This document shows positions 2,201 through 19,663 of a DNA stretch of 23,629 nt, piece by piece. The translations under genes were made by a program, and so were the position numbers. Numbering within the stretch: position 1 is the first letter of the stretch; every line of letters starts with the position of its first letter. The notes under the pieces are model-generated. The model was not told the DNA's origin. It worked only from the letters and a program-made list of their open reading frames with translations, and searched no databases. This stretch comes from a virus, in the IMG/VR virus record IMGVR_UViG_3300049830_000179, positions 1 to 23,629 of that record. One strand, given 5' to 3'.

Positions 2201-2252
2201 GACAGACAAAGCCGGCGCTTCCGCCGAGACAGCTTTATGTGAGGGTAGGACA

Positions 2253-2509: not shown

Positions 2510-2514
2510 GCGAC

Positions 2515-2733: not shown

Positions 2734-2993
2734 CCCTTCCCCGCACCGCAGAAGACGCATTGGCGCATAAGATCGGCGGACTGATCGCCAAGCAGCGCGG
2801 CTGCGGAATTCTCATGCCGGGAGGCAATCACATTGTCTGCCGAGAGACGCGCTTGCCGAAAGATCAGCGCGTAGCCGGCGCATGCGGCTGCTTTGAACTG
2901 GCTGAGGATATTCTGGCGATGACCGCGCCGGCAACCGAACTCGACCGCCTGCGCACCGTCATTTCCCTATGTGCCGGATCAAGAACTTTCTAG
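2730..2993 (+). CDS. Hypothetical phage protein
   Basis: 87 residues starting MTLPRTAEDALAHKIGGLIA, with ATG overlapping the previous stop (ATGA). Three of its four cysteines are in RGCGIL, IVCRE and ACGCFE settings. I do not recognise a family. An upstream in-frame start at 2670 would overlap the previous gene by 64 bases and is less likely. Confidence 0.6.
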   Translation: MTLPRTAEDALAHKIGGLIAKQRGCGILMPGGNHIVCRETRLPKDQRVAGACGCFELAEDILAMTAPATELDRLRTVISLCAGSRTF

Positions 2994-3005
2994 AGGATGC
3001 AGCCG

Positions 3006-3107
3006 ATGGAATTTGAATATTACACTGAAGGATTCGAAGACGCATGGCGCGGCGGACTATCCGCATCCGCCCTCGCACCGGAGGACAAGACAGATGGCGG
3101 CGAATAG
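3006..3107 (+). CDS. 33-residue hypothetical peptide
   Basis: ATG 3006 opens a 33-residue frame (MEFEYYTEGFEDAWRGGLSA, ending EDKTDGGE). A purine-rich AGAGGA lies about 10 bases upstream. The GFEDAWRGG stretch is reminiscent of the first helix of Rmf/CrpP-like domains, but the protein is too short to assign. It ends inside the start of the DUF5131 gene (14-base overlap), consistent with coupling. Confidence 0.4.
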   Translation: MEFEYYTEGFEDAWRGGLSASALAPEDKTDGGE

Positions 3108-4086: not shown

Positions 4087-4315
4087 CCTTGATGCGCTGC
4101 GGCGCGGGATAGACGGCTCTGAAATGGATCGCGAGAATTATGTTTCTTGGGGCGCAAGTCCTGAATATCTCGCCCAACAGAAAGCCGTCGTATCCGCCGC
4201 CCGCGCCTATCTCGCCGCCGTGGCGAGTCCCGATCAAACCGATGCGGCAGCGCAAGCCATCATCGCTGAAGGATACAACCCCGCGCTGGCGCAAGCGAAT
4301 GGAGAGACGGGATGA
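4073..4315 (+). CDS. Small acidic helical phage protein
   Basis: 80 residues (MPMIDLDALRRGIDGSEMDR; Ala-rich helix in the second half). ATG 4073 is preceded by GGGAGG and overlaps the end of the DUF5131 gene by 14 bases; a second ATG at 4079 is also possible. No motif recognised. The stop overlaps the next ATG. Confidence 0.6.
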   Translation: MPMIDLDALRRGIDGSEMDRENYVSWGASPEYLAQQKAVVSAARAYLAAVASPDQTDAAAQAIIAEGYNPALAQANGETG

Positions 4316-4554
4316 GCACAGTCGGATCGAGCCTGCTGGACGAAATTGAGCGCGTATCGGCGTTGCTGGAGAAACAGCGCCAGCGGCATGACGAGATGCG
4401 AGGCTGGCAGCGCATTTTGATCGTGACCGGCATGGAGCCGATGCTGTTCATGATGAAAAGGGAAATTGACCTGGCGAAGGCGTCTGTCGCGAGCGACGAC
4501 GCGATTGCGTGCATCCGCTCGCTCAAGGCGTTGCAGGGCTATGCCGATGACTGA
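4312..4554 (+). CDS. Small coiled-coil phage protein
   Basis: 80 residues, nearly all helical by composition: LLDEIERVSALLEKQRQRHD, then FMMKREIDLAKASV. The first half looks like a coiled coil. No family recognised. It starts by ATGA overlap with the previous stop and ends inside the beginning of the zinc-ribbon-like gene. Confidence 0.6.
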   Translation: MSTVGSSLLDEIERVSALLEKQRQRHDEMRGWQRILIVTGMEPMLFMMKREIDLAKASVASDDAIACIRSLKALQGYADD

Positions 4555-4780
4555 CCTTCCCGCCACCGCGCTGAGGCCAAAGCACATCGCTCAAGACTTT
4601 GACCTTCGCCCCCTGTTTCATATGGAAACGTGCGAGCAATGCGGGAATCTGCATCTGGTTACGCCGTGCAGATACGGTCGATGCCGCAAGTGCAATTTCC
4701 CCATCGGTCCCGACGAGCCTGATCGAGCGCGCGAACTAAAAAGGCTTACAACTTCGCATGGAGCGGGCGCCGATGAGTGA
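4541..4780 (+). CDS. Zinc-ribbon-like small protein
   Basis: 79 residues. The core is CEQCGNLHL, then PCRYGRCRKCNF, with CxxC and CxxC pairs about 15 residues apart and one extra Cys: a probable four-Cys zinc site. It starts at ATG 4541 (or ATG 4547), overlapping the previous gene by 14 or 8 bases. The tail is basic. A role in nucleic-acid or protein binding is plausible but not shown. Confidence 0.55.
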   Translation: MPMTDLPATALRPKHIAQDFDLRPLFHMETCEQCGNLHLVTPCRYGRCRKCNFPIGPDEPDRARELKRLTTSHGAGADE

Positions 4781-5243
4781 CGCCACGAATCCCGTCACCG
4801 CCATCTATCCGCCACCGAAAAGCGAGATGGCAAAACACATCAACGAGCTTGTTGCATTCCTGCGTGACGGGCATAGCGGGCGCGCAGAGTTTCTTTACGC
4901 CATCAACAGCGCAGTCGCGCATGCTGACTATCTTGAGGATCGCTGCGTGGCGCTGGCTGCCGACAACATTGCAATGCGAGACCATCTTGCGATTCCATTC
5001 CCGATGGCGATGAGCGTTGAAACATACGCATCCCATGCCGTTCCTTTCGAAAGAATATTCGAATGGCGGCTTCAACCGATCAGTTGGCAGTTGCGCGTTT
5101 CATTGCCAGAAAGCCGCTACGAGACCGCCGATAAATTCCGCAAGCTGCGCTGGCAGACGTTGCGCAGCGCGTTCAAGATGGTGAGAAAGCAGGTTGAAAC
5201 AGCAATGGAAGATTTGGCGCGACGGAGCCGGTCTGATGGCTGA
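4773..5243 (+). CDS. Hypothetical phage protein
   Basis: 156 residues (MSDATNPVTAIYPPPKSEMA). The central part is helical with a leucine/alanine heptad tendency (HINELVAFLRDGHSGRAEFL), and the end is strongly basic and helical (FRKLRWQTLRSAFKMVRKQV). No family recognised. ATG 4773 overlaps the previous stop region and has GGAGC about 9 bases upstream; ATG 4758 is an alternative adding five residues. Confidence 0.6.
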   Translation: MSDATNPVTAIYPPPKSEMAKHINELVAFLRDGHSGRAEFLYAINSAVAHADYLEDRCVALAADNIAMRDHLAIPFPMAMSVETYASHAVPFERIFEWRLQPISWQLRVSLPESRYETADKFRKLRWQTLRSAFKMVRKQVETAMEDLARRSRSDG

Positions 5244-5511
5244 TGTCCCTGTCCCGACACGCGACATTCTCACCCGCCTTGAACAAGGTTGGTCATGCCG
5301 GCGGTGCAAATGCAGGTCATGCTATAATGGGTATGAGAACCACGAGCACGGCTGCACCGACGGCCCGGATTGCGTCGAAACACGCGAGCGGTTACGTGCC
5401 CGCTGCATAATAGACAGTATCGTCGCCCGCGCCGCCGCCGACGAGATTAAGGCCTTGCGCCGGCAGGTTGCGGAGATGACGGCGCGCAATGCGATGGGGG
5501 ACGGGATATGA
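5236..5511 (+). CDS. Cysteine-rich small protein
   Basis: 91 residues. The N-terminal half contains six cysteines (WSCRRCKCRSCYNGY, then HGCTDGPDC) plus two histidines, which suggests one or two zinc sites. The C-terminal half is a helix (IVARAAADEIKALRRQVAEM). It overlaps the previous gene by 8 bases. Function unknown; the layout (Cys-rich head, coiled-coil tail) fits a small regulatory or adaptor protein. Confidence 0.55.
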   Translation: MADVPVPTRDILTRLEQGWSCRRCKCRSCYNGYENHEHGCTDGPDCVETRERLRARCIIDSIVARAAADEIKALRRQVAEMTARNAMGDGI

Positions 5512-6192: not shown

Positions 6193-6581
6193 CCCGCCCC
6201 CGCCCTGCCATGCCGCTGGAGCCGCTGCATTGCGATATGCGGGACGCCGCCGCGCGCCTGGGCGTCGGGCGCCGCTGGCTACAGGACTTTCTAAAAAACC
6301 ATCCGCATTATAGGCTGGCAGGCGCCAAGAAGCTTTTCAGCGCCGACGACCTTCACTGCCTTTCGGAAGCGATGCGCCCATGCTCAAACTCAAACCGCCC
6401 CGCGCGGGGAAATCGCCGCATTGGACCATCCGGGGGACGCACCTCGGAACACGCGTTAACCGAAGCGCTAAAACTGGCGAGCGAAGGCTTGCCGCGAAGG
6501 AACTCGCGAAGGTCCGCGACGACATCGAAAGTGGCCGTTATGCCAAGGCCGGCGCGCCAACCTTCGCCAGCGCAGCCGTGA
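6189..6581 (+). CDS. Helix-turn-helix / excisionase-like protein
   Basis: 130 residues. The N-terminal 65 residues hold a MerR/Xis-type HTH pattern: CDMRDAAARLGVGRRWLQDF, then RLAGAKKLFSADDLHCLSEA. The second half (RPARGNRRIGPSGG, then TEALKLASEG) also matches my memory of such proteins in alphaproteobacterial prophages, so translation probably runs to 6581 and overlaps the integrase gene by 202 bases in a different frame. By position it would be the directionality factor for the integrase, or its repressor. ATGA overlap with the previous gene. Confidence 0.7.
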   Translation: MTRPRPAMPLEPLHCDMRDAAARLGVGRRWLQDFLKNHPHYRLAGAKKLFSADDLHCLSEAMRPCSNSNRPARGNRRIGPSGGRTSEHALTEALKLASEGLPRRNSRRSATTSKVAVMPRPARQPSPAQP

Positions 6582-7054
6582 GCTATATGCAGGCCGGCGG
6601 CGACCGGCGCTTTCTGGCGCCCTTGATCAAACATTTCGGCACGAGTCCGCTCGCCAGCATCGGGCAGGCTGAGATAGACGCGGCGGCGCTGGCGCTCTAT
6701 CCGCGCGCCAGCCCGGCAACGCGCAACCGGCAGGTCTATGCCGTGGCGTCGGTCGTTATTCGCCGCGCCGGGGTCGCACTGGCGTTGAAACGCCCCAAAG
6801 GCTCGCAGGGCGCGCCAAGGACAGACTTTCTCGCCCCCGACGCGGCATTCTCCCTGCTGGACGCCGCAGCCGCCGTAGGGGCGGATTTTGGCGCGCTCTG
6901 CACCTTCCTGCTTTATACCGGCGCCCGGCTGTCCGAGGCGCTGGCGCTGCGCTGCGATGACGTTGATCTTGCCCGGCAAAGCGCGACGCGGATATTGCGG
7001 CAAAATACATGGGAGACAACCAGCCGAAAATCGGTTTGGAGGTTCCGGGCCTGA
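6380..7054 (+). pseudogene. int: Tyrosine recombinase (phage integrase), truncated in the catalytic domain
   Basis: The frame begins MLKLKPPRAGKSPHW, then a WTIRGTHLG strand region, a core-binding domain (about 50-130, including SPATRNRQVYAVAS) and the start of the catalytic domain (TGARLSEALALRCDDVDL), which carries the first catalytic Arg. After about residue 200 the sequence becomes unrelated basic filler and stops at residue 224. The second catalytic box (H-x-x-R) and the nucleophilic Tyr, normally another 120-150 residues on, are absent. Homology switches near 6975-6990 to a PTH2 fragment in another frame. The product should not be able to recombine DNA. Confidence 0.82.
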
Positions 7055-7227
7055 TGGAATTGATGAGCATCGAGAAACGAGCCGCAGCCAAGGGCATTCC
7101 GCATTTTGTTGTGACCGACGCTGGCCAGACGGTGTTTGACCAGCCAACGGTCACATGCATCGGGATAGGGCCGGCAACGAAGGCGCAGACCAATTCGATT
7201 ACGCGCGGCGCGCAAATGCGGAAATAG
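6967..7227 (+). pseudogene. PTH2-type peptidyl-tRNA hydrolase, C-terminal fragment
   Basis: From about 6967 this frame reads into a PTH2 fold end: QPKIGLEVPGLMELMSIEKR, then AKGIPHFVVTDAGQT, PTVTCIGIGP and a final NSITRGAQMRK. DAG-x-T and the T-x-x-x-IGP loop are hallmarks of PTH2 enzymes, which free tRNA from stalled peptidyl-tRNA. The N-terminal third, with the conserved Lys/His/Ala-rich catalytic segment, is missing and replaced by integrase sequence. ATG 7009 exists but has no good ribosome site. Some phages carry such hydrolases close to tRNA genes, as here. Confidence 0.65.
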
Positions 7228-7643: not shown

Positions 7644-7720
<77 letters not shown>

Positions 7721-7727
7721 ACGAAGC

Positions 7728-7801
7728 TGGCTCTCCCTCACAGATTCGAACTGCGATCTTCTAATTCAAAGTCAGGTGTCCTACCGTTAGACGAAGGGAG
7801 A
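7728..7801 (-). tRNA. tRNA-Gln (TTG)
   Basis: 74 nt with encoded CCA and G discriminator. Acceptor stem TCTCCCT/AGGGAGA is perfect (7 pairs). D arm GTCT/GGAC with AACGGTA loop; anticodon loop CTTTGAA gives anticodon TTG; T arm CGCAG-TTCGAAT-CTGTG. The anticodon stem CCTGA/TTAGA has one wobble and one C/A mismatch. It is the first gene of a two-tRNA unit read leftward and carried by the phage, probably to supply CAA/CAG decoding. Confidence 0.87.
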
Positions 7802-8752: not shown

Positions 8753-9186
8753 TCCGTCACCATGAAAATGTTGCTGTCGAACGACACGGTGCGCTCGACA
8801 AACAAGGTAGTGAACCGCCATGAGGTCTGGATGTAATAGGCGCCGACCGGCAGGTCGCATTTATCGTGGCCGATCCACCAGACCAAAGTCAGTTGTGGCG
8901 GGAAGCGCACATCAGGCCGGTAATCGCTCTGCCCCGATCCGGAGCAAACGAGATAGAAATTCGGCGAGTCTTCCTTGTCGGCGCGCCGCACCGTGACGGT
9001 CCACTGCGCATGAAATTGGCGTGCGACATTGCGGTCAACCAGCATCACAATCGGCTCTCCGACCTTCGCGTTTTTGGCGAAAACCTTGCGGACCTCCATC
9101 CACATCGCGTTCGGCAGGATCAGCGGCTCAAACAAGGCCCAAACGACCATCAGCCACGGGACCATGAGCGCGGCGAAGCGGATCAC
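8749..9186 (-). CDS. Membrane-anchored protein with external domain
   Basis: 145 residues from GTG 9186, which overlaps the preceding stop (GTGA); ATG 9207 would add seven residues. One N-terminal transmembrane segment (about 4-24, FAALMVPWLMVVWALFEPLI) is followed by a beta-rich domain of about 115 residues (GEPIVMLVDRNV, QFHAQWTVTVRR, NFYLVCSGSGQS, RFTTLFVERTV). This topology puts the domain outside the inner membrane. Not recognised as a holin or spanin. Confidence 0.65.
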   Translation of the reverse strand: MIRFAALMVPWLMVVWALFEPLILPNAMWMEVRKVFAKNAKVGEPIVMLVDRNVARQFHAQWTVTVRRADKEDSPNFYLVCSGSGQSDYRPDVRFPPQLTLVWWIGHDKCDLPVGAYYIQTSWRFTTLFVERTVSFDSNIFMVTE

Positions 9187-9440
9187 CTTATGATCCCCTT
9201 GATCCATTCGATAGAGCTTCCCTTGACGATGAAATACGCCGCGACCAGCCACCCGAGATAAGTCAGAACTTTGCGCACCACGCTGGCGGCGACGCCGAAA
9301 GCGGCAAGCCCCCGCCACATCGCGGCTACCTGTTTCAGCGCGGCGGCGTCTTCCTCATTGAATATCGTAATCTCATGCGCATCGATGAGTTCGGCCATCC
9401 TCTCCAGAATTTCGTCTGGACGCTTGCCCTTGTCCGTCAC
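9183..9440 (-). CDS. Single-pass membrane protein
   Basis: 85 residues from GTG 9440 (GTGA overlap with the o-spanin stop); a TTG at 9455 would add five residues. The N-terminal half is charged and helical (DEILERMAELIDAHEITIFN), then MWRGLAAFGVAASVVRKVLT and a hydrophobic segment YLGWLVAAYFIVKG. Its size, charge pattern and place in the lysis region allow a holin-like role, but phage proteins of this build also serve elsewhere. Confidence 0.6.
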   Translation of the reverse strand: MTDKGKRPDEILERMAELIDAHEITIFNEEDAAALKQVAAMWRGLAAFGVAASVVRKVLTYLGWLVAAYFIVKGSSIEWIKGIIR

Positions 9441-9721
9441 GGCAGGCCCCGGCAAATTCGGCTTTCCAGATGCATGCGATATCCACGCCCGACAACAGTC
9501 ACAGCGTCCGGGTGAAGCACAACCAAATCAGCCGCAGCGCCCAACTCACGTCCCGATAGGGGCTGTGGACATAGCGGGGCCAACTGGCGGCGGATTTCCG
9601 TCGCGCGCTCATTTGCTGTCCCCGTTGACTGCACTGCCGCCAGCGGCTTTGGCTGCGTCGCGCAAGCGCTTAACAAGATCGGCAGGAGAGCCGTCGCCAA
9701 TATCGACCTGACTGCGTTCAT
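9437..9721 (-). CDS. o-spanin-like lipoprotein (Rz1-type)
   Basis: 94 residues: signal peptide with lipobox L17-S18-A19-C20 (LPILLSACATQ), then a short proline-containing linker and a compact end. The start lies inside the i-spanin gene and the frames overlap by 113 bases, the arrangement known for Rz/Rz1 pairs. Such a lipoprotein sits in the outer membrane and joins the inner-membrane spanin to fuse the membranes at lysis. Confidence 0.65.
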   Translation of the reverse strand: MNAVRSILATALLPILLSACATQPKPLAAVQSTGTANERATEIRRQLAPLCPQPLSGRELGAAADLVVLHPDAVTVVGRGYRMHLESRICRGLP

Positions 9722-9869
9722 CGGCTGTCCTCGCTATGATCCGTTCCGTTTCGTCCGCCGCGCGCTCCGCCCCAAGTTCCTGCGCGTTCTCATTCGACCG
9801 CTTGTCGCGAAACCAGTTGAGGCCGAAGGAGGCGAGCGCTTTCAGGATCAGGCTGATCAGCCAACTCAT
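9609..9869 (-). CDS. i-spanin-like membrane protein (Rz-type)
   Basis: 86 residues beginning MSWLISLILKALASFGLNWF (N-terminal membrane anchor), followed by a charged helical region (NENAQELGAERAADETERII) and a polar end: the usual plan of inner-membrane spanins. ATG 9869 overlaps the stop of the upstream lipoprotein gene. Assigned from topology plus the embedded o-spanin gene, not from sequence similarity. Confidence 0.62.
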   Translation of the reverse strand: MSWLISLILKALASFGLNWFRDKRSNENAQELGAERAADETERIIARTADERSQVDIGDGSPADLVKRLRDAAKAAGGSAVNGDSK

Positions 9870-10258
9870 GGCGCGTTTTTCACCGTGCTGTCCTGAATCG
9901 TCTGGTAAGCCGCGAGCACATTGGCCAGCGCGCCGCCCCAATTCAGCGAACCGTCCGCGTTGACCGGCGGTCGCTTGCAGTTGCTCTTGATCGTCTCGAC
10001 CGCCAGCGTTTCCGCCGCCAGCGTGGCCGGGCCGATATAGCCAGCGGCTACGTGCTGGTTGAAATACCCAATGGCTGTCTGGATGTAGCCGGACTTCGAA
10101 TTGAATGCGGCACAAGCAGCGCGGGCGGCAAGTTCTTTGTTGTCGCTGGCGAATTGCTCAATGCTGGCTAAGCTGCAGCTGGACAGCGCCAGCGCGGCGG
10201 TAAGTGCGAGCGCAATTCCGCCGCCGGGGCGGGCATACATGATGATTTCGCGTTTCAT
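9866..10258 (-). CDS. Lipoprotein
   Basis: 130 residues. A signal peptide rich in Ala/Leu ends in L25-S26-S27-C28 (ALALSSCSLAS), a good lipobox. The mature part has CAAFNSKSGYIQTAIGYFNQ and a helical Ala-rich region with two further Cys. ATG 10258 follows GGAG at about 9 bases; ATG 10240 is possible. Similar proteins occur in phage lysis regions, but I cannot name a function. Confidence 0.68.
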   Translation of the reverse strand: MKREIIMYARPGGGIALALTAALALSSCSLASIEQFASDNKELAARAACAAFNSKSGYIQTAIGYFNQHVAAGYIGPATLAAETLAVETIKSNCKRPPVNADGSLNWGGALANVLAAYQTIQDSTVKNAP

Positions 10259-10259
10259 G

Positions 10260-10409
10260 TCAAATTACTCCGAGCAGCAGAAGGACGAGCAGGATGACGA
10301 CAAGGCCGCCGAAGCCGCCGGTTGAGTAAGGCCCCCATTCCTGATGCCATGAGCCGAAACCGCCAAACAACAGTAGGATGATCAGAATGAGGACAATGGG
10401 GTTTCTCAT
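10260..10409 (-). CDS. DUF3309-like small membrane protein
   Basis: 49 residues: MRNPIVLILIILLLFGGFGS, then WHQEWGPYSTGGFGG and LVVILLVLLLLGVI. Two hydrophobic segments flank a short polar loop with a W-x-Y-x-S-G-G pattern, matching the DUF3309 family, small proteins common in Proteobacteria. Overlaps the holin-candidate stop (ATGA). Confidence 0.8.
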   Translation of the reverse strand: MRNPIVLILIILLLFGGFGSWHQEWGPYSTGGFGGLVVILLVLLLLGVI

Positions 10410-10744
10410 CTCGCCACGACCTTGTTTGATGGCTGCGCATCGGCGGTCACGGAATTGTTGACAACAATTTGCTTGACCTCTGGATTGGCCGCGACAGCGG
10501 CTATTTGTGATGCGCGGCTGGCTGTCCACATCGCGTATGCACCCGTCGAAAGACTCACGACCGCAGACACGCCAGCAAGCAATTCCGCCACACCGTGACC
10601 GATTTGATCAACCGCTGCTTTCAGCGATGCCGCGGATTCTGGCGTCATGAAGTGCAGCACGGTCAGCATGCCGGTGAGCGTCGCCGTGATTTGAATGGCG
10701 TGACGACCGACAGCCGCCGTTTCATCTTTGGTTGGCAGTCTCAT
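10406..10744 (-). CDS. Holin candidate
   Basis: 112 residues with two likely membrane segments: about 19-34 (ITATLTGMLTVLHFM) and about 53-74 (GVAELLAGVSAVVSLSTGAYAM, split here by a short loop), then MWTASRASQIAAVAANPEVK and a polar end. This order, including the SR-x-x-QI-x-AV-x-x-x-P-E-V end, is typical of small holin-type proteins in alphaproteobacterial phages. A holin would set the time of lysis by opening the inner membrane for the endolysin encoded upstream. Confidence 0.65.
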   Translation of the reverse strand: MRLPTKDETAAVGRHAIQITATLTGMLTVLHFMTPESAASLKAAVDQIGHGVAELLAGVSAVVSLSTGAYAMWTASRASQIAAVAANPEVKQIVVNNSVTADAQPSNKVVAR

Positions 10745-10770
10745 GGCTTATCCCAGCGTCCTTTGATTAT

Positions 10771-10789
10771 GCCGCGCATCCGGCGCGGC
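10771..10789 (-). promoter_or_regulatory. GC-rich hairpin before the holin candidate
   Basis: GCCGCGC, loop CGGAT, GCGCGGC forms a perfect 7-bp stem in the short gap between the secreted-protein gene and the holin candidate. No T tract follows, so a transcript-stability or translation-control role is more likely than termination. Confidence 0.4.
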
Positions 10790-10796
10790 GCGGCAG

Positions 10797-11123
10797 TCAC
10801 ACCCCGGACGGCGGGATGAAAAAGCAGTAGACGATGGTCACGCCGCCGTTCGGGAGCCTCTTGAAGAACGCCCAGTACAGCCCGTCATTCGCCAGCGCGG
10901 GCAGCGCCTTGTCCATCGGGATCGGCTCGGGATAATCCGGCAGCACATAGCCCTGCGCGGTGATCATGACCGCCTCTGGCTTGTACCAATGCACGTCCTC
11001 GGGGCCGCAGCATTGAGCCTTCACCCACTTTGGCACATCGCCGCCGTCGCCCCATTGATCATGCGCGCGCGCCGGGACAGCTGCGCAAAGCGCGGCGAAA
11101 GCGAGGGCAACGCGCAGGATCAT
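10797..11123 (-). CDS. Secreted small protein with CCGP motif
   Basis: 108 residues: signal peptide MILRVALAFAALCAAVPARA, cleaved before HDQWGDG. The mature protein has VPKWVKAQCCGPEDVHWYKPEA and YWAFFKRLPNGG with a final VYCFF. I recognise this as a family of periplasmic hypothetical proteins often found in phages of Rhizobiales and relatives; the function is unknown. Overlaps the next upstream gene by ATGA. Confidence 0.75.
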   Translation of the reverse strand: MILRVALAFAALCAAVPARAHDQWGDGGDVPKWVKAQCCGPEDVHWYKPEAVMITAQGYVLPDYPEPIPMDKALPALANDGLYWAFFKRLPNGGVTIVYCFFIPPSGV

Positions 11124-11248
11124 GGCGACATGGCCATGTCAATCGCCGTGCCGATAAGGCCAAGCAAGCCGCCGATCACCACGGCGGCCATCCAGCCAAA
11201 GGCCAGCACAGCGAGCAGCTCGCCGAACGCGCGTGAACCGCCAGACAT
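11120..11248 (-). CDS. 42-residue membrane protein
   Basis: MSGGSRAFGELLAVLAFGWM followed by AAVVIGGLLGLIGTAIDMAM: one long or two short hydrophobic segments. GGTGGAG lies upstream of ATG 11248. Too small for family assignment; pinholin-like or accessory lysis roles are possible. Confidence 0.55.
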   Translation of the reverse strand: MSGGSRAFGELLAVLAFGWMAAVVIGGLLGLIGTAIDMAMSP

Positions 11249-11265
11249 GGGCTTGCTCCACCCTG

Positions 11266-11370
11266 CTATCTGACAAAATCGAGAAACAACGCTCCAGCGA
11301 TAAGGACCAGCCAAAGCGCGAAGACTCCTAAGCCTTCGCCGCTGCCAGCCCCGCGCGATCCCGCCGCCAT
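11266..11370 (-). CDS. 34-residue single-pass membrane peptide
   Basis: MAAGSRGAGSGEGLGVFALW followed by LVLIAGALFLDFVR. One membrane segment with a Gly-rich head. The ATG is 3 bases after the endolysin stop. The longer frame in the same phase reads through the endolysin gene and is rejected. Confidence 0.5.
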   Translation of the reverse strand: MAAGSRGAGSGEGLGVFALWLVLIAGALFLDFVR

Positions 11371-11372
11371 GG

Positions 11373-12092
11373 TCAGGCCTCGCTCAGCGCGCTGGCCGTG
11401 CTGTGCTGCACGCCATGGTCCAGCATGTCGGGCGCGGGCGGGCCGGCGGGCCACGCATAGGAATTGACCCGGTTGCGCGGGATGCGTTCGATGCACACGC
11501 GGTCGCCCTGGTTGCCGCCTAGCGCCCAGACGTTCACGGCGTCAAAGCCGGCGACGAAAAACACATGGCCGCCGCCTTGGCGCTTTTTCGTGCCGACCGC
11601 GCCCACCGCCGGGGCGGGCAGCTTTGTCCCCCATTTGGCATAGTCGAGCGCCCATAGCGTGCCCGTGCCGGTCAGCCCCGCGTCATGCAGCACGCCGCCG
11701 ACAAAGGCGGCGCACCAGGGCACGGCGTCATGCCTGACTTCCGGGTGGCCGGCCTTGGCATAAAACGCCACGACCTTCGGATTGTCAGCTTCGCCCGGCC
11801 CCTCTGCAAGGCCGAGATAGCTGGCGGCAATGCCCATCCATTTGAGCACGGCGCGGCGGGACGGCGCGGAAGCCGGGCCGGCAATGCCGCCAGGTTCCGC
11901 GCCGACCGGGGCGGCGGTCAGGCCAAGCGCGGCCAGGGTCAGCGGCCCGGCCTCACCATCCGGCGCAAGCCCGGCGCCGCGCTGAAAGGCGATGACGGCG
12001 GCGCGCGTCGCTGGCCCGGAGTCGCCGTCAACGTCCAGCGCGGGATCCGCGCCATGCGCGTTCAGCGCGGTTTGCAGGGCCTTGACATCCAT
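11373..12092 (-). CDS. Endolysin: peptidoglycan-binding domain plus TIGR02594/CHAP-like peptidase
   Basis: 239 residues. Residues about 1-60 (MDVKALQTALNAHGADPALD, then DGDSGPATRAAVIAFQ) are a PG_binding_1 domain. After an Ala/Pro linker, residues about 85-220 form a TIGR02594-type cysteine peptidase with C127 (VPWCAAF), H176 (GGGHVFFV) and N194 (GGNQGD) as the likely triad. It would cut cell-wall peptides after holin opening. ATG 12092 has GGAGG about 8 bases upstream; the frame extends to 12386 but that part is arginine/proline filler opposite another gene. Confidence 0.88.
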   Translation of the reverse strand: MDVKALQTALNAHGADPALDVDGDSGPATRAAVIAFQRGAGLAPDGEAGPLTLAALGLTAAPVGAEPGGIAGPASAPSRRAVLKWMGIAASYLGLAEGPGEADNPKVVAFYAKAGHPEVRHDAVPWCAAFVGGVLHDAGLTGTGTLWALDYAKWGTKLPAPAVGAVGTKKRQGGGHVFFVAGFDAVNVWALGGNQGDRVCIERIPRNRVNSYAWPAGPPAPDMLDHGVQHSTASALSEA

Positions 12093-12112
12093 TGGCTTGC
12101 CTCCAGCAAAGC

Positions 12113-12136
12113 GCGCCGCCCGTCGCGGGGCGGCGC
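12113..12136 (-). promoter_or_regulatory. Hairpin in the endolysin leader
   Basis: GCGCCGCCC, loop CGCGAC, GGGCGGCGC is a perfect 9-bp stem ending 21 bases before the endolysin ATG and just before its GGAGG ribosome site. No T tract is present. It may tune lysin translation or protect the transcript. Confidence 0.45.
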
Positions 12137-12150
12137 CAGGGTGATGCGCG

Positions 12151-12342
12151 TCAGACGACGGGCGCGGGGGCGAAGCGCGCGGCAAGCTTTGCCGCCGCCG
12201 TCGCCATGTCGGCTGCCATCGTGGCGAGCGGCGCAAGGTCAACGGCGCCGGGCGCGACAGGCGATGCGACGGCCTTGTCAATCTCGACAACGAGAGCGTC
12301 AAAGCCGGTTTTGATCGCGGCAACTTCCGAGGATGTAAGCAT
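12151..12342 (-). CDS. Small Ala-rich helical protein
   Basis: 63 residues from ATG 12342 (GGAG about 8 bases upstream): MLTSSEVAAIKTGFDALVVE, then a long Ala-rich helix. The frame continues upstream to ATG 12441 and would add a His/Arg-rich 33 residues (MPHRHRHHAAHLLTRIAEFG); that start has a weak ribosome site. No family recognised; it lies between the tail and lysis genes. Confidence 0.55.
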   Translation of the reverse strand: MLTSSEVAAIKTGFDALVVEIDKAVASPVAPGAVDLAPLATMAADMATAAAKLAARFAPAPVV

Positions 12343-12459
12343 TCGGGTTTCTCCTTTTTGCAAAACTTCGCCGAGACGAAGACCAAACTCCGCGATCCGC
12401 GTCAGCAGATGCGCGGCATGATGGCGATGGCGGTGAGGCATGGGTTCAATATTCCGCGG

Positions 12460-15039
12460 TCAGTCGAGATAGGCGCCCCAAAGCCGCGCCGCGTCGCTGT
12501 TGACGCCAACGCGGCCCCAGCCCGCGAAAGCCGTTGAATTCGTCGCGTCCAGATTGCCGAGGAAGGCGTAGGTCGGCGGTGGCCCGATGGCGACAAACAC
12601 CGACGCCAGACTCGGATAGGGGAACTGCACGTTCATCGGCCCTACCGTCGCGCCGTCATAATCGACGCCGCCGCCTGACCAATGGAAATTGTCGGTCAGG
12701 TTGTAGGCGGGGCGATATAGGGCGGAAAACACAATGCTGTCCGCTGCACCGACGCCGGCACCGGTGACATTGGCGGAGAGCGTCACTGTCGTTGCGGTTT
12801 TCGACAGCACCGTTGTCCCCGCCGGAATGACGGTTGACGCGGTCAAATCCGCGACAGCAATGCCAACGGTGACGAACGCCGGCACCGAAGCGAAATTGAG
12901 AACCGCGCTGCCCGCGCTTGTCACTGCATTGACTGTCGCGTTGCTGCTGATGTTGCAGACCGAATAGGAAACCGAAATATAGAAATCCACCGCGACGGCG
13001 AAGTTTCCGCGCAGCGAATTGTACTTGACGCAGTTCATGTTGAACGCGGCCTGCGCGTCATAGATGTAATTGCCGGTGGCTATATTGTTGTAGCTGCCGA
13101 GGTCGAAATAGATCGCGGCGGTCAGGCCTTGGCCGGGGTTATCCCAGCCGGACGGATGCATGTGCGCGAAGAAATTGGCATAGACCATAAACGCCGGGCG
13201 GTTCACATCGTCTGGCGCATTTGTGTTTGTCGGGGCGGCGCCCGTCAGATTGCCATTCGCGTAAAGCCCGGCCACGTCAATGTTGAGGTCCGGGCAATTC
13301 TGCGCGCGCGAGTGATGGAAGCGCTGGTCCGAATAGTAGAACGGCGTGAAGGCGGCACCCCAGCCAAAATAGACGCAGCCCGTGGCGACGCGGCTGATAT
13401 CGACATGGTTCACGTCGCATCGGCTCACCGTGCCGCAGAACACGCCGACGCCGGAATACTCATGGCCGATGTCGCGAATGACCGTGTTGCCGATTTCGAT
13501 CTGGTCGATCTGCGAAGGCGCGGGCGTTGAGGTGACGGCGAAGTCGAGACAATGCGCCTGGATTGCGGTCGAGGCGATGTTTGAAAACAGGCTTTCGTCA
13601 ATAGAGATTTGCTTTGCGCCGCAGCCGATCTGAATGCCCTGCCCGCCAAGGCCGGTGAACGCCACGCGGTAGAAACTGATGTTTGTCGAGTTCTTGACCG
13701 TGACCGCGCCGGGGACGGTGCCGAAGCCGTATGTCACCCCGGAAAGCGTCAGATAGGTGCCGGGCGCGTAGCCGACATAGCCGTTTGTCGAAGGCGTGTT
13801 CCAGTCGAAGAACTTGACCGGGACGGACCATCGGATATTTGACGCGCCGTCGAGCGCGAGGCCGGTCGCGACGCCGTTGGCGACATAGACGCCGAGCGCT
13901 TGGACCTGCGCCAGCGTCGTCGTGCCGGCGGGCTGGTAGAGGTTGAGATAGCCGAGCGCCTGATCGAAGCAAAACGAACCGGCATAGGTGAGATAGGCGC
14001 ACGAGCTTTTGAGAAAATAGTGCTGGCCGACATCGTGATATGGCCCAATGGCAAAGGGCATATTGGTGATCGTCGCCGAGCACGGATTCTGATTGTTCGA
14101 CCCGCCAAGCCCCTTGCAAAACTCCAGCGTCCGCGCCGGGTCTTGCGGCGTGGCGGAAACCGTGCCGTCGCCATTATCGGCGAGCGTCAGATTGGGCAGG
14201 CAAGTCACGTTCCAGGCGAGCGGAGCGCAGACTTCGGCATAGGCCAGCGGGGAACCTGCGGCCATCAGTCCGGCAATTGGCAGCGTCAACTTGCGTGCGG
14301 AAAACGAAAACGAGTCCGCAGCGCCTACGCCCGCGCCGGCGACGTTGGCTGACAGTGTGACCGTGGTTGAGGTTTTCGACAGCACCGTTGTGCCGGCTGG
14401 AATGGCCGTTGTCGCGGTCTGATCGTTCGCGGTCATTCCGACCGTGATGAACGCCGGAACAGATGCGAAGTGCAGCACCGCGCTGCCCGCAGCCGTCACC
14501 GCATTGACGGAGGCAGTTCCTTCATTCCATGACGCGATGACGTTCGCGAGGCCGGGCGTGGTGTAGGGCTGATACTTCGCGAGTTCAAGCGACTTGCCAT
14601 CGCCGGTCCACGCGTGCCGCAGCTTCGGGCTTGTCCCGACATTGGCGTAATAGGTCTGGCCGGCGCCTTGCAGGATCGTGTGCGTCAGTGTCGCGCCGAC
14701 AAGCTGCCCGAGCGCCGTGCCGCAGTCGGCGGTGCCAAACCAGACCGGATGCGCCAGCGTGCCGGACTGCCCCGCGCCGAACGTGACGGTCGCCGGCGGA
14801 ACATAATCGCCGACGATGCAAACCGTCGGGTCAGCGCCGCCTGCCGCCGACGTTGAAGCCGCCGTAGCCGCCGCGAGCAACGTCAGTTTTGGCGAGCCGA
14901 GCGTGCCGGGATTGCCGTCGTTGCCCGTCGCCTGGTTGACATAGAGCTGCGTGCGCGCCGCGCTTGGCGCATTGCAGCCGCTGAGGCATAGCGCGGTCAG
15001 CGCCAGCGCGGACGCCCAAGTGAAGCGTGGCAAGATCAT
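12460..15039 (-). CDS. Lipid-anchored right-handed beta-helix protein
   Basis: 859 residues. N-terminal signal with lipobox L19-S20-G21-C22 (ALCLSGCNAP), then YVNQATGNDGNPGTLGSPKL, the N-cap pattern of pectate-lyase-like beta-helix proteins. The central part (about 370-680) has the short beta/turn repeats of such a helix (NISFYRVAFTGLGGQGIQIG, QISIDESLFSNIASTAIQA, NISSNATVN). A module of about 70 residues occurs twice (about 178-248 and 703-773). By position it is a tail-fibre-operon product, possibly a polysaccharide-binding or -cutting protein, but the lipobox points to membrane anchoring. ATGA overlap with the upstream gene. Confidence 0.75.
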   Translation of the reverse strand: MILPRFTWASALALTALCLSGCNAPSAARTQLYVNQATGNDGNPGTLGSPKLTLLAAATAASTSAAGGADPTVCIVGDYVPPATVTFGAGQSGTLAHPVWFGTADCGTALGQLVGATLTHTILQGAGQTYYANVGTSPKLRHAWTGDGKSLELAKYQPYTTPGLANVIASWNEGTASVNAVTAAGSAVLHFASVPAFITVGMTANDQTATTAIPAGTTVLSKTSTTVTLSANVAGAGVGAADSFSFSARKLTLPIAGLMAAGSPLAYAEVCAPLAWNVTCLPNLTLADNGDGTVSATPQDPARTLEFCKGLGGSNNQNPCSATITNMPFAIGPYHDVGQHYFLKSSCAYLTYAGSFCFDQALGYLNLYQPAGTTTLAQVQALGVYVANGVATGLALDGASNIRWSVPVKFFDWNTPSTNGYVGYAPGTYLTLSGVTYGFGTVPGAVTVKNSTNISFYRVAFTGLGGQGIQIGCGAKQISIDESLFSNIASTAIQAHCLDFAVTSTPAPSQIDQIEIGNTVIRDIGHEYSGVGVFCGTVSRCDVNHVDISRVATGCVYFGWGAAFTPFYYSDQRFHHSRAQNCPDLNIDVAGLYANGNLTGAAPTNTNAPDDVNRPAFMVYANFFAHMHPSGWDNPGQGLTAAIYFDLGSYNNIATGNYIYDAQAAFNMNCVKYNSLRGNFAVAVDFYISVSYSVCNISSNATVNAVTSAGSAVLNFASVPAFVTVGIAVADLTASTVIPAGTTVLSKTATTVTLSANVTGAGVGAADSIVFSALYRPAYNLTDNFHWSGGGVDYDGATVGPMNVQFPYPSLASVFVAIGPPPTYAFLGNLDATNSTAFAGWGRVGVNSDAARLWGAYLD
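12723..12933 (-). repeat. Internal module, copy 2 (C-terminal) of the beta-helix lipoprotein
   Basis: Encodes VNAVTSAGSAVLNFASVPAF, then IPAGTTVLSKTATTVTLSAN and a GAGVGAADS end. Pairs with copy 1 at 14297-14508. The DNA copies share long identical runs (for example a 20-base stretch around GACAGCACCGTTGT), so duplication is recent or maintained by conversion. Confidence 0.8.
14297..14508 (-). repeat. Internal module, copy 1 (N-terminal) of the beta-helix lipoprotein
   Basis: Encodes VNAVTAAGSAVLHFASVPAF, then IPAGTTVLSKTSTTVTLSAN and the same GAGVGAADS end. It looks like an immunoglobulin-like or carbohydrate-binding beta-sandwich; I infer this only from its alternating hydrophobic pattern and Thr/Val richness. 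Confidence 0.8.
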
Positions 15040-15365
15040 TTCTCCGCGCCAGCCTCTGTGTTGGCTTCCATGATGGCGACGCGGGCTTGAGCGTCAGAAA
15101 GCGCGGCGTGAGCCCTCGCTTTGTCTTCCGTGAGTTCGGCGACCTTATCGGCGAGCGCGCGGTTTTGCGCATGCGTCGCGACGTTGATATCGGCGAGCGC
15201 CTTTGGCAGGTCGAAGCCGCGCGCCTTGGCCTGCGCCGGCATCATTGCGTCGCTGATCGCAAGCGTCGGCTTGCCGAAAGCGTCAACGCCGGCGTCGGCG
15301 AGCACAACGTGATAGGCGCCGCTGCCGTCGCTTTGACCGCGCCACAAAAATTCATAGAGAAACAT
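15036..15365 (-). CDS. Fibre-associated small protein
   Basis: 109 residues starting MFLYEFLWRGQSDGSGAYHV, then FGKPTLAISDAMMPAQAKAR and a coiled-coil C-terminal half (ALADKVAELTEDKARAHAAL). Similar proteins stand beside tail-fibre genes in alphaproteobacterial phages; a chaperone or fibre-attachment role is possible but unproven. A strong GGAGG lies before ATG 15365. Confidence 0.65.
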   Translation of the reverse strand: MFLYEFLWRGQSDGSGAYHVVLADAGVDAFGKPTLAISDAMMPAQAKARGFDLPKALADINVATHAQNRALADKVAELTEDKARAHAALSDAQARVAIMEANTEAGAEK

Positions 15366-15380
15366 TCCCGCGCCTCCTGA

Positions 15381-17006
15381 TTACAGCGACCCGAAGGCCA
15401 TTTCCTGCCAAGCCGCGCCGTCATAGACGTGCGTCACCCATTGGCTGGCCGTCAGCGCTTTGCCGCTTGCCGTGAAGGTGAAGCCGCCGAGCGCCGCCGG
15501 CGATGCGGTCAGGCGTTTCATGCCTTTGTAGGCATTCGTCGTTCCGTAGGTCAGCGTCAGGTTGCCGGTCAGCGTCGTGGTGAAGAGCTGAATGTTTGCG
15601 TCGGTCAGCGCTGCGAGCGTCACCGCGCCGGTCGTCGTGGCGTTGGCGTTGTAGTTTTCCTCGCGCGACAGGCGCCAGTTTGTGCCGTCTGAAACCGCTT
15701 GGCCGCCGCCGCCGCCAAGGTCTGAAATATAGATAGCCTGGCCCGCCGCCGTAGACGCCGCCGGCAATGTCCCGATGGTGTAGGAGCGAAGGCGCAGCAC
15801 GCGGTTCGCGTCAATGACGGGGTTTGTCCCGAACATTGACAGGCCGACACCCGCCTCCAGCCGCATGACTTCGATTGGCGTAACTGACCCGGAAACCGAC
15901 AAGTTGAAGGTGAAGGACGTTTCCATACTCGTGCCAGACGGCGCGGAGTCCTTGACCAGACTTGAAAAATATCCGCCCGAGACAAAGCCGCCGCCGGCAT
16001 AGGCGTTGAACGAATATCGGCCGATCTCATCGCTTGTTGAGACGCTTGCGGGGGATGCCAGAGTTCCCCTTGACTTCCTTGCGATAAAGACGCCCGCCGA
16101 CGCATCCGCCGAGCTGCGCTGCAAGGTGACGGTCGTTGATCCCTCGCCTAGCGCTTGCGTGGTGACAGCGCCCGCCCCGGCAAGATAGTTCGTCACCGTC
16201 CCCGCAATGGTCAGGGTTGTGAACGTGCCCGCTGCGGAAGTCGTGCCGCCTATGATCGCATTGTTGATCGTGCCGCCGGATATCGCCGGCGTGGTGAGCG
16301 CCGCCGACGTTGCGAGGGCGACCGCCCCCGAGCCGGTGACGCCGTTCGACAGGTCGGCCGCCGCGGCTTGTGTCACCACGCCGGCGCCGCTGCCCTTGAG
16401 CGCGCCGGTGATCGTGCCCGCGCCGCCGCGCGCCGCCGCGACTGTGCCCGACGTGAGATTGCTCGCGTTTCCGGAAAACGCGGTCGTCGCAAGCTTCGTT
16501 GACGAGTCCAGCGCGGTAGGCGTCGGCGCGGTAGGCGTGCCGGTAAACGCCGGCGAGGCGAGCGGCGCAAAGACATTTGGCGAGAAGATCGTCATCCAGT
16601 TTGCGGACGGCGGCACGCTGCCGATATTCGCGAGGGTCGCGATGTAAAGGCCGTTACTGGCGTCGGAGACGATATCCAGCGCGTAATATTGCGTTGCGGG
16701 ATTGTGCAGGCCGCGCGGCGTCGGCGAAAGGCTGGCGGGGAACAGAACATCCCAATTCGGCGAGCCTTCGAATGGCGCGGCGCCGACATTGACGGCTTTC
16801 GAAATCCAGATGATCGCGGCGTTCGAGACAAAATCGCCGGGCGAATATGTCGTCCCGTTCGCCCATTGGCCGCGCCACTGGACGCCGAGATAGTTGACCA
16901 TGTCGGTGAGAATGTCCGCGACATTCGGCGGCGTAATTGCGCGGGTGCCGTTGACGTAAATTTTCGCCACGATCGCGGCGATGATGTCGGCGCGGGTTTT
17001 GGCCAT
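15381..17006 (-). CDS. Tail fibre protein
   Basis: 541 residues. The N-terminal part (MAKTRADIIAAIVAKIYVNG, then GQWANGTTYSPGDFVSN) is a fibre base with a carbohydrate-binding-like W-x-x-G-T-x-Y segment. The middle is made of Thr/Ser/Ala/Gly-rich beta repeats (TGTPTAPTPTALDSSTKLAT, GGTTSAAGTFTTLTIAG) of phage fibre shafts. The C-terminal third is a receptor-binding-like tip (VTLAALTDANIQLFTTTLTG, then WVTHVYDGAAWQEM). It probably contacts the host surface. Confidence 0.82.
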   Translation of the reverse strand: MAKTRADIIAAIVAKIYVNGTRAITPPNVADILTDMVNYLGVQWRGQWANGTTYSPGDFVSNAAIIWISKAVNVGAAPFEGSPNWDVLFPASLSPTPRGLHNPATQYYALDIVSDASNGLYIATLANIGSVPPSANWMTIFSPNVFAPLASPAFTGTPTAPTPTALDSSTKLATTAFSGNASNLTSGTVAAARGGAGTITGALKGSGAGVVTQAAAADLSNGVTGSGAVALATSAALTTPAISGGTINNAIIGGTTSAAGTFTTLTIAGTVTNYLAGAGAVTTQALGEGSTTVTLQRSSADASAGVFIARKSRGTLASPASVSTSDEIGRYSFNAYAGGGFVSGGYFSSLVKDSAPSGTSMETSFTFNLSVSGSVTPIEVMRLEAGVGLSMFGTNPVIDANRVLRLRSYTIGTLPAASTAAGQAIYISDLGGGGGQAVSDGTNWRLSREENYNANATTTGAVTLAALTDANIQLFTTTLTGNLTLTYGTTNAYKGMKRLTASPAALGGFTFTASGKALTASQWVTHVYDGAAWQEMAFGSL

Positions 17007-17021
17007 CAGGATCGCCCCGCG

Positions 17022-18551
17022 TCAGTACGTATAGATTTTGAGAATCAGCGCGCCGTTGACGCCCGCGCCCGAAGCATTGGGGCCGGTAGCGCTGCCACCC
17101 GAGCCGCCCGCGCCGTAGTTCATCCATTTCGTCGGCGTTGAGTTGACGCCAAGGCCGTTTGTGCCGACGAGGCCAGGCAGGCCGAATGCCGTGGCGATTG
17201 AGCCGAGATTATTGACGCCGCCAACGCCGCCTGTGCCTGGCAAGCCCGTCGCGCCAATGCCGGCCTGGCCGCCGCCAGCCGTCATTCCAGCGACGGTTGA
17301 CGCCGCGCCGTTATTGCCATTTGCCAGGACGGCGGAAGTCACCGCCGCGCCGCCCGCGCCGATAACAACGGCCAGAGAAGCGCCGACCTGAGTCGGGGAG
17401 AGTTGCCCCTCAATGACGCCGCCCGTGCCGCCGCCGCCGCCGAAGTTAGACCCGCCGGTGGAAACGCCCCCGGATGCCCCGCCGCCTATGAGGGCAAAAT
17501 CGGCATAGAGAAAGCGGGGAGGCGGCGTGAACGTGCCGTTCGCCGAAAAGATTTGATAGGTCGGCGCGGCAAGGCGCTGGATGAGGTTTTGAACCTGCGA
17601 TGACAGCACATTGCCGACGACTTCAAAATACGTGCCGTCATAGACCAACTCGACAATCGAATTGGCGATGAGGTCGCCGTTGCCAAGGCTGGTCAGGTCG
17701 CTGCGCGCGCACGCCACAAAGCCAAGCCCACTGACGTTTATCTGCGTCTGCCCCGTGACCGTGTTGGCGATCTTGACAAAAAACCGCTGATATTTTGCGT
17801 AAGCGGCAACCGGCGGCTGCGGATTGATGACAATCAGGTTTGGCGTGACGCTTACGTCGTCAAAGCCGATCCATTTACTGTTTTGGATCGCGGCGGGAAT
17901 CGTCGGCAGTTTCACCGGAATGAATGACGCCGGCAGGTAGGGCGTGATGTTGCCGGACGTAATTGTGGTCTGCCCGTTGACCAAGGTGACATAGAACAGG
18001 CCGGTCCAGCCGGCGTCTGGCGTCGGCGCGATTTGCGTGCCACTCGTCGCGGCGACGCCGGCCTTGACCTGAATCGACGCAATGCCGAGCCGGTCGGTGT
18101 TCTGTGACGCGCCGCTGTTGTTCGGCCCCTGGAACGGAACCGCCGGGTTCGAGACGTTGTAATACGGCAGCAGGCGCGGGTTGGTGTCGAGATCGGCGTA
18201 GCGCGTCTCGATCAAGAAGACCTGCGCAAAGCCCGCGGTGACCGGCGGGACGAACACAATCGGGTCGTTCAGCGGCATCAAGCCCTGTTTGACCAGCGGT
18301 ATCGTGGTGTTGGCGGGCAGGCTCGACCAAGCCGTCGCCTCAAGGCTGTCCTGCACATAGATAGCGCCAGGCGTCAGGATCGCGGTCAGGCTGGCCGGGG
18401 CGGTAGGGATGCAGGTGAAGCCGTCAACAGCCGCCGCCGTGCCAAGCGTCGCCTGCGCAAGGCCGCCAAGCCCCGCCATGGCGTTCTGCTGCGGCTGCAA
18501 CGAGTCGGTTTCCTGCACCAGCGCGCCGAAATATGTTGTTCTGCGGTCCAT
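17022..18551 (-). CDS. Tail fibre / tail-associated protein with glycine-rich tip
   Basis: 509 residues. The N-terminal 350 residues (MDRRTTYFGALVQETDSLQP, LTPGAIYVQDSLEA, GNGDLIANSIVELVYDGTYF) resemble the base part of phage tail proteins of the type found after gpI. From about 360 there is a long glycine-rich region (ALIGGGASGG, GGGGGTGGVI, GTGGVGGVNN, AGGSGGSATG) like the polyglycine-II tips of fibre adhesins. Preceded by a terminator-like hairpin, with GGGAT as ribosome site. Confidence 0.78.
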   Translation of the reverse strand: MDRRTTYFGALVQETDSLQPQQNAMAGLGGLAQATLGTAAAVDGFTCIPTAPASLTAILTPGAIYVQDSLEATAWSSLPANTTIPLVKQGLMPLNDPIVFVPPVTAGFAQVFLIETRYADLDTNPRLLPYYNVSNPAVPFQGPNNSGASQNTDRLGIASIQVKAGVAATSGTQIAPTPDAGWTGLFYVTLVNGQTTITSGNITPYLPASFIPVKLPTIPAAIQNSKWIGFDDVSVTPNLIVINPQPPVAAYAKYQRFFVKIANTVTGQTQINVSGLGFVACARSDLTSLGNGDLIANSIVELVYDGTYFEVVGNVLSSQVQNLIQRLAAPTYQIFSANGTFTPPPRFLYADFALIGGGASGGVSTGGSNFGGGGGTGGVIEGQLSPTQVGASLAVVIGAGGAAVTSAVLANGNNGAASTVAGMTAGGGQAGIGATGLPGTGGVGGVNNLGSIATAFGLPGLVGTNGLGVNSTPTKWMNYGAGGSGGSATGPNASGAGVNGALILKIYTY

Positions 18552-18563
18552 GACGATCCCAAC

Positions 18564-18586
18564 AAAAAAGCCGCGCGAGGCGGCTT
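18564..18586 (-). terminator. Intrinsic terminator between the tail and fibre genes
   Basis: On the - strand: AAGCCGC, loop CTCGC, GCGGCTT, followed by TTTT to make a six-T run. A perfect 7-bp stem and a T tract, ending 13 bases before the fibre ATG. It would reduce transcription into the two fibre genes, the beta-helix gene and the lysis genes. Confidence 0.65.
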
Positions 18587-18629
18587 GAAAAACGGCTTGT
18601 GGTGCGTGGTCTTTGGCGCGGCGGGCGGG

Positions 18630-18932
18630 CTATGCGGCGTTGGCGATGGCGACGCCGGGCGTCGGCGTTACGACATAGGCCTGACCGCCGGACTGGATTT
18701 TAAAAAGGATCAGCTTTCCGCTTGCCGTCGGGAGTTCAACGACATGGTTTTCGCTGTTGAACTCCACCACGATCACCGGCATGGCGACGCCGGTTTGCGG
18801 GTCTATCCGCTGTTCCTTCACGAGTTTCTGCGTCAAGGGCGGCGGAGTCGTCAGCGTCGCGATTGTTGCGTCGTCAAGTTCGACCTTGCACAACGGGCGC
18901 AGATTGAAGTGGTTGCGGACCTCAACAAGCAT
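18630..18932 (-). CDS. Small tail-region protein
   Basis: 100 residues from ATG 18932 (AGAGGG about 8 bases upstream); a TTG at 18959 overlapping the previous stop would add nine residues. MLVEVRNHFNLRPLCKVELD, then RIDPQTGVAMPVIVVEFNSE: a beta-rich small protein. No family recognised. Lies between the gpI-like gene and the terminator, so it is the last gene of the baseplate segment. Confidence 0.62.
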   Translation of the reverse strand: MLVEVRNHFNLRPLCKVELDDATIATLTTPPPLTQKLVKEQRIDPQTGVAMPVIVVEFNSENHVVELPTASGKLILFKIQSGGQAYVVTPTPGVAIANAA

Positions 18933-18955
18933 GCGGATTTCCCTCTTGAAATTTT

Positions 18956-19663
18956 TCAAGACCAGTCATTCGAGAAATCGTAGGACCAATCGTCGCCGAA
19001 CAGCGCGGACGGCCCGTCGGTAATGCGCATCCAGACAATCACACCGGCGGCGCGCGCCGCGTCCGCCGCCGCGAAAATATCGGCGTCAACCACGTCGCCC
19101 GCGACCTGCGAAAGATTGATGTACCAGGCATTTGCCGAATAAAACCCGTAGCCATAGCCCGGAATGTTCGGAATGCCGGCGCCGAGCGGGCGGTAGGCGT
19201 TGACGAAAACCTGATAGGGCAGTGACAGCGAGCCGTAATAGCCCGCCTGCCCGTAATAGGCGTTTTTCCCGTAAGCGGCGGTGTCGTTCGGATTCCACGG
19301 CTCAATGATCTTTGGCACGCGCCCGGTCACATCGGCGATGGCTTGCGAAAGCCCTTTGCGCGTCGCGCGCTCGCGAACGATTTCCGCGAGAATGCGAGCC
19401 AGAAACAAGGCGTCGTTCTCGCCTTTCCGGCGCGTGAACCGGACCCCGAAAAAATCCCACGCGGCAAGGTCGAGAAAGCCGTCGGTTGTGGTTTGCAGCC
19501 GCGTTTGCGCTTTGGCGTATTGCGTCAGCGCGTAATCGAAAGCCTCGCCGTCCGCCGCGCCGGCGAGCAGCGCCGACACCTCATCGGATTTGTCGCGGAA
19601 CCATGACGCCGGAAGCAGCGCCTTGAGCCGCGCCAGCGTGTCCTTTGCGTCGCCAACGGCCAT
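18956..19663 (-). CDS. Tail protein, P2 gpI-like
   Basis: 235 residues. The first half (LARLKALLPASWFRDKSDEV, DFFGVRFTRRKGENDALFLA, RKGLSQAIADVTGRVPKIIE) matches the pattern of P2-type tail protein I / DUF2612-like baseplate proteins: long helices, then an R-K-x-L-x-x-A block. The second half is aromatic and Gly/Tyr-rich, probably the fibre-facing part. It directly follows baseplate J, the order seen in P2-like phages. Confidence 0.72.
   Translation of the reverse strand: MAVGDAKDTLARLKALLPASWFRDKSDEVSALLAGAADGEAFDYALTQYAKAQTRLQTTTDGFLDLAAWDFFGVRFTRRKGENDALFLARILAEIVRERATRKGLSQAIADVTGRVPKIIEPWNPNDTAAYGKNAYYGQAGYYGSLSLPYQVFVNAYRPLGAGIPNIPGYGYGFYSANAWYINLSQVAGDVVDADIFAAADAARAAGVIVWMRITDGPSALFGDDWSYDFSNDWS

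Follow-up and report, generated by a model that had tools for sequence, protein, structure and literature searches.

The founding member of the glycosidase family GH141 is the alpha-L-fucosidase BT_1002 (BT1002; 5MQP), and the fold of the family is a right-handed parallel beta-helix with an inserted beta-sandwich domain. BT1002 requires two aspartates, D523 and D564 (PMC10154630, PMC12786026), and this catalytic pair is conserved in Xyn141E (PMC5593877). In phages, glycan-cutting enzymes are already known on the virion, and small lipoproteins are known to serve exclusion; the gene of one of them, the T5 exclusion lipoprotein Llp, adjoins that for the receptor-binding protein (PMC9586334). The window analysed here, that is, the whole stretch of DNA, is a virus record of 23,629 bases, and it carries next to its tail fibre genes a gene, P0001, whose product is predicted to be an exported lipoprotein and a distant relative of GH141.

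Gene neighbourhood and reading frame

The minus strand of the window encodes, in this order, baseplate genes, two fibres, P0003, P0001, a 63-aa ORF, endolysin, small exported or membrane proteins and a spanin-like pair (Table 1). The original prediction gave the 859-residue ORF at its exact coordinates, was silent on its strand, which is minus, and placed it inside the tail-fibre operon; the gene does adjoin the fibres, but it marks the far end of their block, with the fibres on one side and the lysis genes on the other. The ATG of P0001 overlaps the stop codon of P0003 by 4 nt (ATGA, 15036-15039) and has GGAG 3-6 nt upstream, and, judged by this overlap, its translation is coupled to that of P0003. 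In consensus scans of the minus strand, 9000-19000 showed no sigma-70-like promoter, and the stretch from the stop of fibre 2 to the start of P0001 showed no terminator-like site. The GC3 of the gene (0.77) equals that of its tail-gene neighbours. The suggestion of a moron, in the strict sense of a gene transcribed independently between a promoter and a terminator of its own, is not supported, given the coupling, the lack of a promoter-like site in these scans and the GC3; a recent foreign insertion was rejected on the same GC3 value.

The ATG is the earliest start codon after the preceding in-frame stop, and the 18 residues of open frame between this stop and the ATG contain no start codon. 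Within codons 1-134 the only in-frame ATG, GTG or TTG codons are 1, 3 and 54, of which the latter two are TTG; TTG54 lies within the conserved domain, which begins at about residue 30, and has no Shine-Dalgarno. Because TTG3 and TTG54 are the only alternative starts and the domain extends from about residue 30, all plausible products of the gene should retain the lipobox. Homologues starting after the lipobox had been named as evidence that would speak against a lipoprotein; for P0001 itself there is no plausible start that skips it. An artefactual start was considered and rejected, there being no alternative start ahead of the domain.

The lysis block also encodes, at 10797-11123 (minus strand), a protein of 108 aa that matches no family and has a signal peptide of the cleavable type, and a second lipoprotein of 130 aa with an LSSC lipobox is located downstream of the endolysin (9866-10258, minus). 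The spanin-like pair (9437-9875, minus) consists of an i-spanin (phrog_214) and an out-of-frame overlapping lipoprotein ORF, a candidate o-spanin. Farther along are complete genes for tRNA-Met and tRNA-Gln (7644-7801, minus). Between them and a truncated tyrosine integrase (6380-7054), which it directly follows, lies a fragment (7002-7226, plus; PF01981, 1.7e-14) that encodes a PTH2-type peptidyl-tRNA hydrolase reduced to its C-terminal two thirds and resembles decayed or junction DNA. Genomes from the order to which L054 belongs contain sequences that match the tRNA-Met gene at up to 92% identity, and as a pointer to the host the tRNA pair yielded generic tRNA-Met matches only.

Table 1. Features of the P0001 region, in the order in which they are read on the minus strand.
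Feature	Position	Strand	Evidence
Tail fibre 1, conserved N-terminal fibre module and Gly-rich C-terminus	17022..18551	-	family searches, fibre-module comparison
Tail fibre 2	15381..17006	-	phrog_22682, 1.6e-5
P0003, 109-aa ORF without assigned function, overlapping the P0001 start by 4 nt	15036..15365	-	
Shine-Dalgarno region GCGGAGAA directly 5' of the P0001 ATG	15040..15047	-	sequence inspection
P0001, GH141-like glycosidase, predicted lipoprotein, 859 aa (ATG at 15039, stop at 12460)	12460..15039	-	ORF list, PDB match, HMM
Signal peptide and lipobox, residues 1-22 (LSG-C22)	14974..15039	-	sequence, lipobox rule
N-terminal beta-helix cap, residues 30-106 (YVNQATGNDGNPGT)	14722..14952	-	GH141 HMM domain 1, i-E 0.014
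74-aa module copy 1 (residues 175-248), separating the cap from the catalytic helix	14296..14517	-	sequence comparison
GH141-like catalytic region, residues 336-707	12919..14034	-	HMM domain 2, i-E 4.7e-17; PDB match
Codon of D588 (DVAGLY), counterpart of BT1002 nucleophile D523	13276..13278	-	alignments, motif scan
Codon of D646 (IYFDLGS), counterpart of BT1002 acid/base D564	13102..13104	-	alignments, HMM, motif scan
74-aa module copy 2, residues 700-773	12721..12942	-	78% aa identity to copy 1, dN/dS 0.16
63-aa ORF without assigned function, with Shine-Dalgarno	12151..12342	-	
Endolysin ORF, PG_binding_1 and TIGR02594; true start probably 3' of TTG	11373..12386	-	domain matches

Relationship to GH141 and the active site

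A sequence search of the PDB with P0001 returned one match, BT_1002 (E 1.3e-5, residues 440-627). With a profile of P0001 and BT_1002 segments, GH141-like proteins were detected in the genome of an alphaproteobacterium (L168, E 3.4e-21) and, once the profile was extended, in 48 of the 246 genomes of Planctomycetota, the phylum of Limnoglobus, P0001 itself being one row of these first-look profiles. An independent HMM was built from 34 bacterial GH141-like proteins, with P0001 and BT_1002 left out and the database size set to 177,635. It matched P0001 at E 1.5e-21 in two stretches, residues 14-106 (the cap) and 336-707 (the catalytic region), and reported none of 500 shuffled sequences, while the best other phage ORF reached 2e-4 via a generic cap motif only. 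By these alignments P0001 is a distant relative of GH141, with about 23% identity to the characterised enzyme BT1002 across the core; the family membership, well supported, had been missed by the original prediction. Its proposal of a beta-helix after the lipobox draws support from the match to 5MQP, a solved structure, and from the independent HMM, not from a model (single-sequence AlphaFold2, pLDDT 34); a 230-residue insertion in the HMM alignment would agree with the fold of the family. In place of the generic beta-helix coat that it envisaged, P0001 is better read as a GH141-like glycosidase with both catalytic aspartates kept. No family was assigned to P0001 by Pfam or PADLOC, and NCBIfam gave a chance match only. 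A PHROGs match (phrog_6002, 8e-6) was rejected as the identity of the protein, its best stretch being confined to the repeated module.

D588 and D646 of P0001 align with D523 and D564 of BT1002 (chain D528 and D569 in 5MQP, where the numbering is offset by 5 and Q336 is chain 341). The first catalytic motif occurs in all 34 bacterial relatives and the second, searched with a narrow pattern, in 26 of them; the distance between the two motifs is about 20 residues longer in P0001. The active-site Gln of BT1002 (Q336) and Xyn141E is absent from P0001 in the alignment of the PDB match, and the DEGS motif reads DLGS. From the conserved pair we infer an enzymatic activity, and the loss of the Q336 counterpart suggests a substrate that probably differs from that of BT1002 and Xyn141E. 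Because of the low core identity and the altered active-site residues (Q336, DEGS), P0001 could also be inactive, or act on another substrate.

The mature protein would begin almost directly with the GH141 cap, and one copy of the 74-aa module is inserted between cap and core, the other following the core. The dN/dS of 0.16 between the modules, together with the native GC3, indicates a functional resident gene on which, in the two copies at least, purifying selection acts. P0001 showed no resemblance to the fibre modules, while the N-terminal fibre module is common to 163 other ORFs in the loci examined. The best reading of this domain structure is that of a bacterial-type glycosidase probably captured by the phage.

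Lipoprotein signal

The N-terminus of P0001 (MILPRFTWASALALTALCLSGC22NAPS) has a single Arg, a hydrophobic core without charge, an LSGC lipobox and Asn at +2, so that the n-region charge, the hydrophobic core and a [LVI][ASTVI][GAS]C lipobox near residue 15-35, as looked for in lipoproteins, are all present. This lipobox had been called textbook: the LSG-C22 signal is convincing, but the word is slightly generous because residue -4 is Cys, which departs from the strict PROSITE lipoprotein pattern. A simple rule, which is not SignalP (a basic residue in the n-region, an uncharged hydrophobic core and [LVIMFA][ASTVIGLC][GAS]C at residue 15-35), was applied to 1,344 ORFs of at least 300 aa, each read from its first Met, from 166 sources, the window and 165 loci. 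The sole gene to pass was P0001, which is in the set twice (window and L001), and the chance pass rate of the rule is 0.12% for random N-termini of P0001 composition and 0.6% for shuffles of its own N-terminus. The predicted export signal is well supported by these scans, and we infer from it lipidation and the location and facing of P0001 in the outer membrane; the default facing of outer-membrane lipoproteins is the periplasm. Signal peptides are found in many of the bacterial GH141-like relatives and a lipobox, by a similar rule, in one (L180).

Homologue searches and related phages

A search of 50,697 phage records at E up to 10 yielded no close homologue of P0001, and neither did plasmids, viral contigs or genome contigs; the viral and genome scans worked with short exact peptide patterns, by which distant relatives are easily missed. 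In one order, 397 genomes gave only two matches, both short, weak and of no value. Neither canonical GH141 in the viral collections searched nor a homologue with the same gene context in any of the collections searched was found, and the literature on GH141 with phage, judged by titles, abstracts and counts, held no phage GH141. Thus P0001 would be the first GH141-like enzyme in a phage within these collections and sensitivities, a limit set by the weakness of the scans for distant relatives. The comparison of phages with bacteria that had been proposed as a check on the gene found no homologue in the phage records searched and, by the profile searches, bacterial-type relatives that are often secreted.

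Among related phages, the closest by baseplate J (L086, 65%) carries in the slot after the fibres an acyltransferase 3 gene (5e-24; 16779-18017) on the opposite strand, and L012 carries there an acyltransferase-SGNH gene (14553-16469), also on the opposite strand, which is the only detectable homologue of the former among the loci searched. O-acyltransferase genes of this kind typically modify O-antigen. In two loci with related baseplates (L006 and L122) a cap motif similar to that of P0001 is fused behind the conserved fibre N-module, in a virion-borne form. L006 and L007, baseplate relatives with about 50% identity, are found in planctomycete genome records, and this phylum is rich in GH141-like enzymes. 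The baseplate operon of L004 encodes a 1,273-aa protein (1510-5331) with fibronectin III-like repeats, the C-terminal half of which looks glycosidase-like by eye.

Possible function

We give about an even chance to the reading that P0001 is a captured GH141-like glycosidase which, exported as an outer-membrane lipoprotein, cuts a host surface glycan late in infection. On this reading a GH141-like gene of bacterial type was captured by a phage whose baseplate is of the contractile type, and it now closes the tail-fibre block. Its product would be made when the late genes are expressed, leave the cytoplasm through Sec, receive its lipid from the host at Cys22 and be anchored by it in the outer membrane. 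It might then cleave a surface glycan of the host, most plausibly the one bound by the fibres, and with this glycan lost, progeny and competing phages would be kept from adsorbing again, whether to the dying cell or to debris; expressed from a prophage, the same protein could bring about superinfection exclusion. An alteration of the host surface had been foreseen by the original prediction and is the most economical reading of the lipoprotein signal, the absence of a virion module and the secreted bacterial homologues, although not as a mere coat. A lipid-anchored enzymatic receptor destroyer, that is, an exported glycosidase matched to the phage's own fibres and stripping the receptor from cells and debris, is a tentative proposal, and on balance a doubtful one.

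Since P0001 is predicted to be exported and lipid-anchored and keeps both catalytic Asp, it is more likely a tool trimming the surface sugars of the infected host than a part of the virion. A tail-borne depolymerase, its signal ignored or tolerated, would fit the position of the gene after the fibres, the predicted right-handed beta-helix, a usual tailspike fold, and the similar cap borne on fibres by L006 and L122; the reading is nevertheless quite improbable, as P0001 lacks the N-module shared by the 163 ORFs in the loci examined, has a lipoprotein signal present in no other of the long ORFs scanned and has bacterial homologues that are stand-alone enzymes, often secreted. The least probable reading is that of a catalytically dead GH141-like scaffold that acts as an adhesin on the surface or masks a receptor. 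The diverged surroundings of the active site (the Q336 counterpart and the altered DEGS motif) and the duplicated modules, which may bind something, could be cited in its favour; against it, both catalytic Asp are retained at about 25% identity overall.

Two further readings keep an exported enzyme and change its use. A lysogenic-conversion or fitness gene, expressed from the prophage and lending the lysogen a new surface trait by trimming its capsule, or a new nutritional one by degrading environmental glycans, with no direct role in infection, would agree with the plant or algal glycans degraded by known GH141 enzymes (PMC10154630, PMC12786026, PMC5593877), with the frequent secretion of the bacterial homologues, the integrase remnant in the window and the O-acyltransferases occupying the same slot in related phages. 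It is unlikely, however, because a gene that is coupled to late genes and has no separate promoter-like site on the minus strand would hardly be expressed in a silent prophage, unless there is a promoter of non-sigma70 type. An improbable alternative is that the exported enzyme and the adjacent lysis block open a capsule or exopolysaccharide for the escape of progeny; the late-operon position directly upstream of the endolysin and spanin-like genes would suit such a helper, but a lipid anchor is unnecessary for this role and no published precedent was found in the literature searched.

Comparison with known systems

With the GH141 enzymes (BT1002/5MQP, Xyn141E and Wf141s) P0001 shares the N-terminal helix cap, the long insertion, both catalytic Asp and, by prediction, the catalytic parallel beta-helix region and secretion. 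Unlike them, it has a predicted lipid anchor and two copies of an unrelated module and is encoded by a phage, and it differs from BT1002 also in its diverged core and the longer spacing of its catalytic motifs. With virion beta-helix tailspike depolymerases it has in common that it is a phage protein predicted to form a beta-helix and to act on glycans, but it carries an export signal and no virion-attachment module. The OafA-like O-antigen acetylase genes of L086 and L012 share with it the slot after the fibres and a predicted change of a surface glycan; they encode integral-membrane acyltransferases on the opposite strand, whereas P0001 is a predicted lipoprotein hydrolase in the late operon.

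T5 Llp and Cor resemble P0001 as phage lipoprotein genes beside a receptor-binding gene. These small lipoproteins jam an outer-membrane protein receptor, and Llp is not an enzyme, whereas P0001, with 859 aa and a hydrolase domain, is a predicted enzyme for a glycan. If the proposed function is true, a lipidated glycosidase beside the fibres would unite the two strategies of virion glycan cutting and lipoprotein exclusion, and receptor destruction via an exported enzyme would become directly testable. Such an enzymatic receptor destroyer would be a counterpart of Llp-type exclusion, following the same logic as viral receptor-destroying enzymes.
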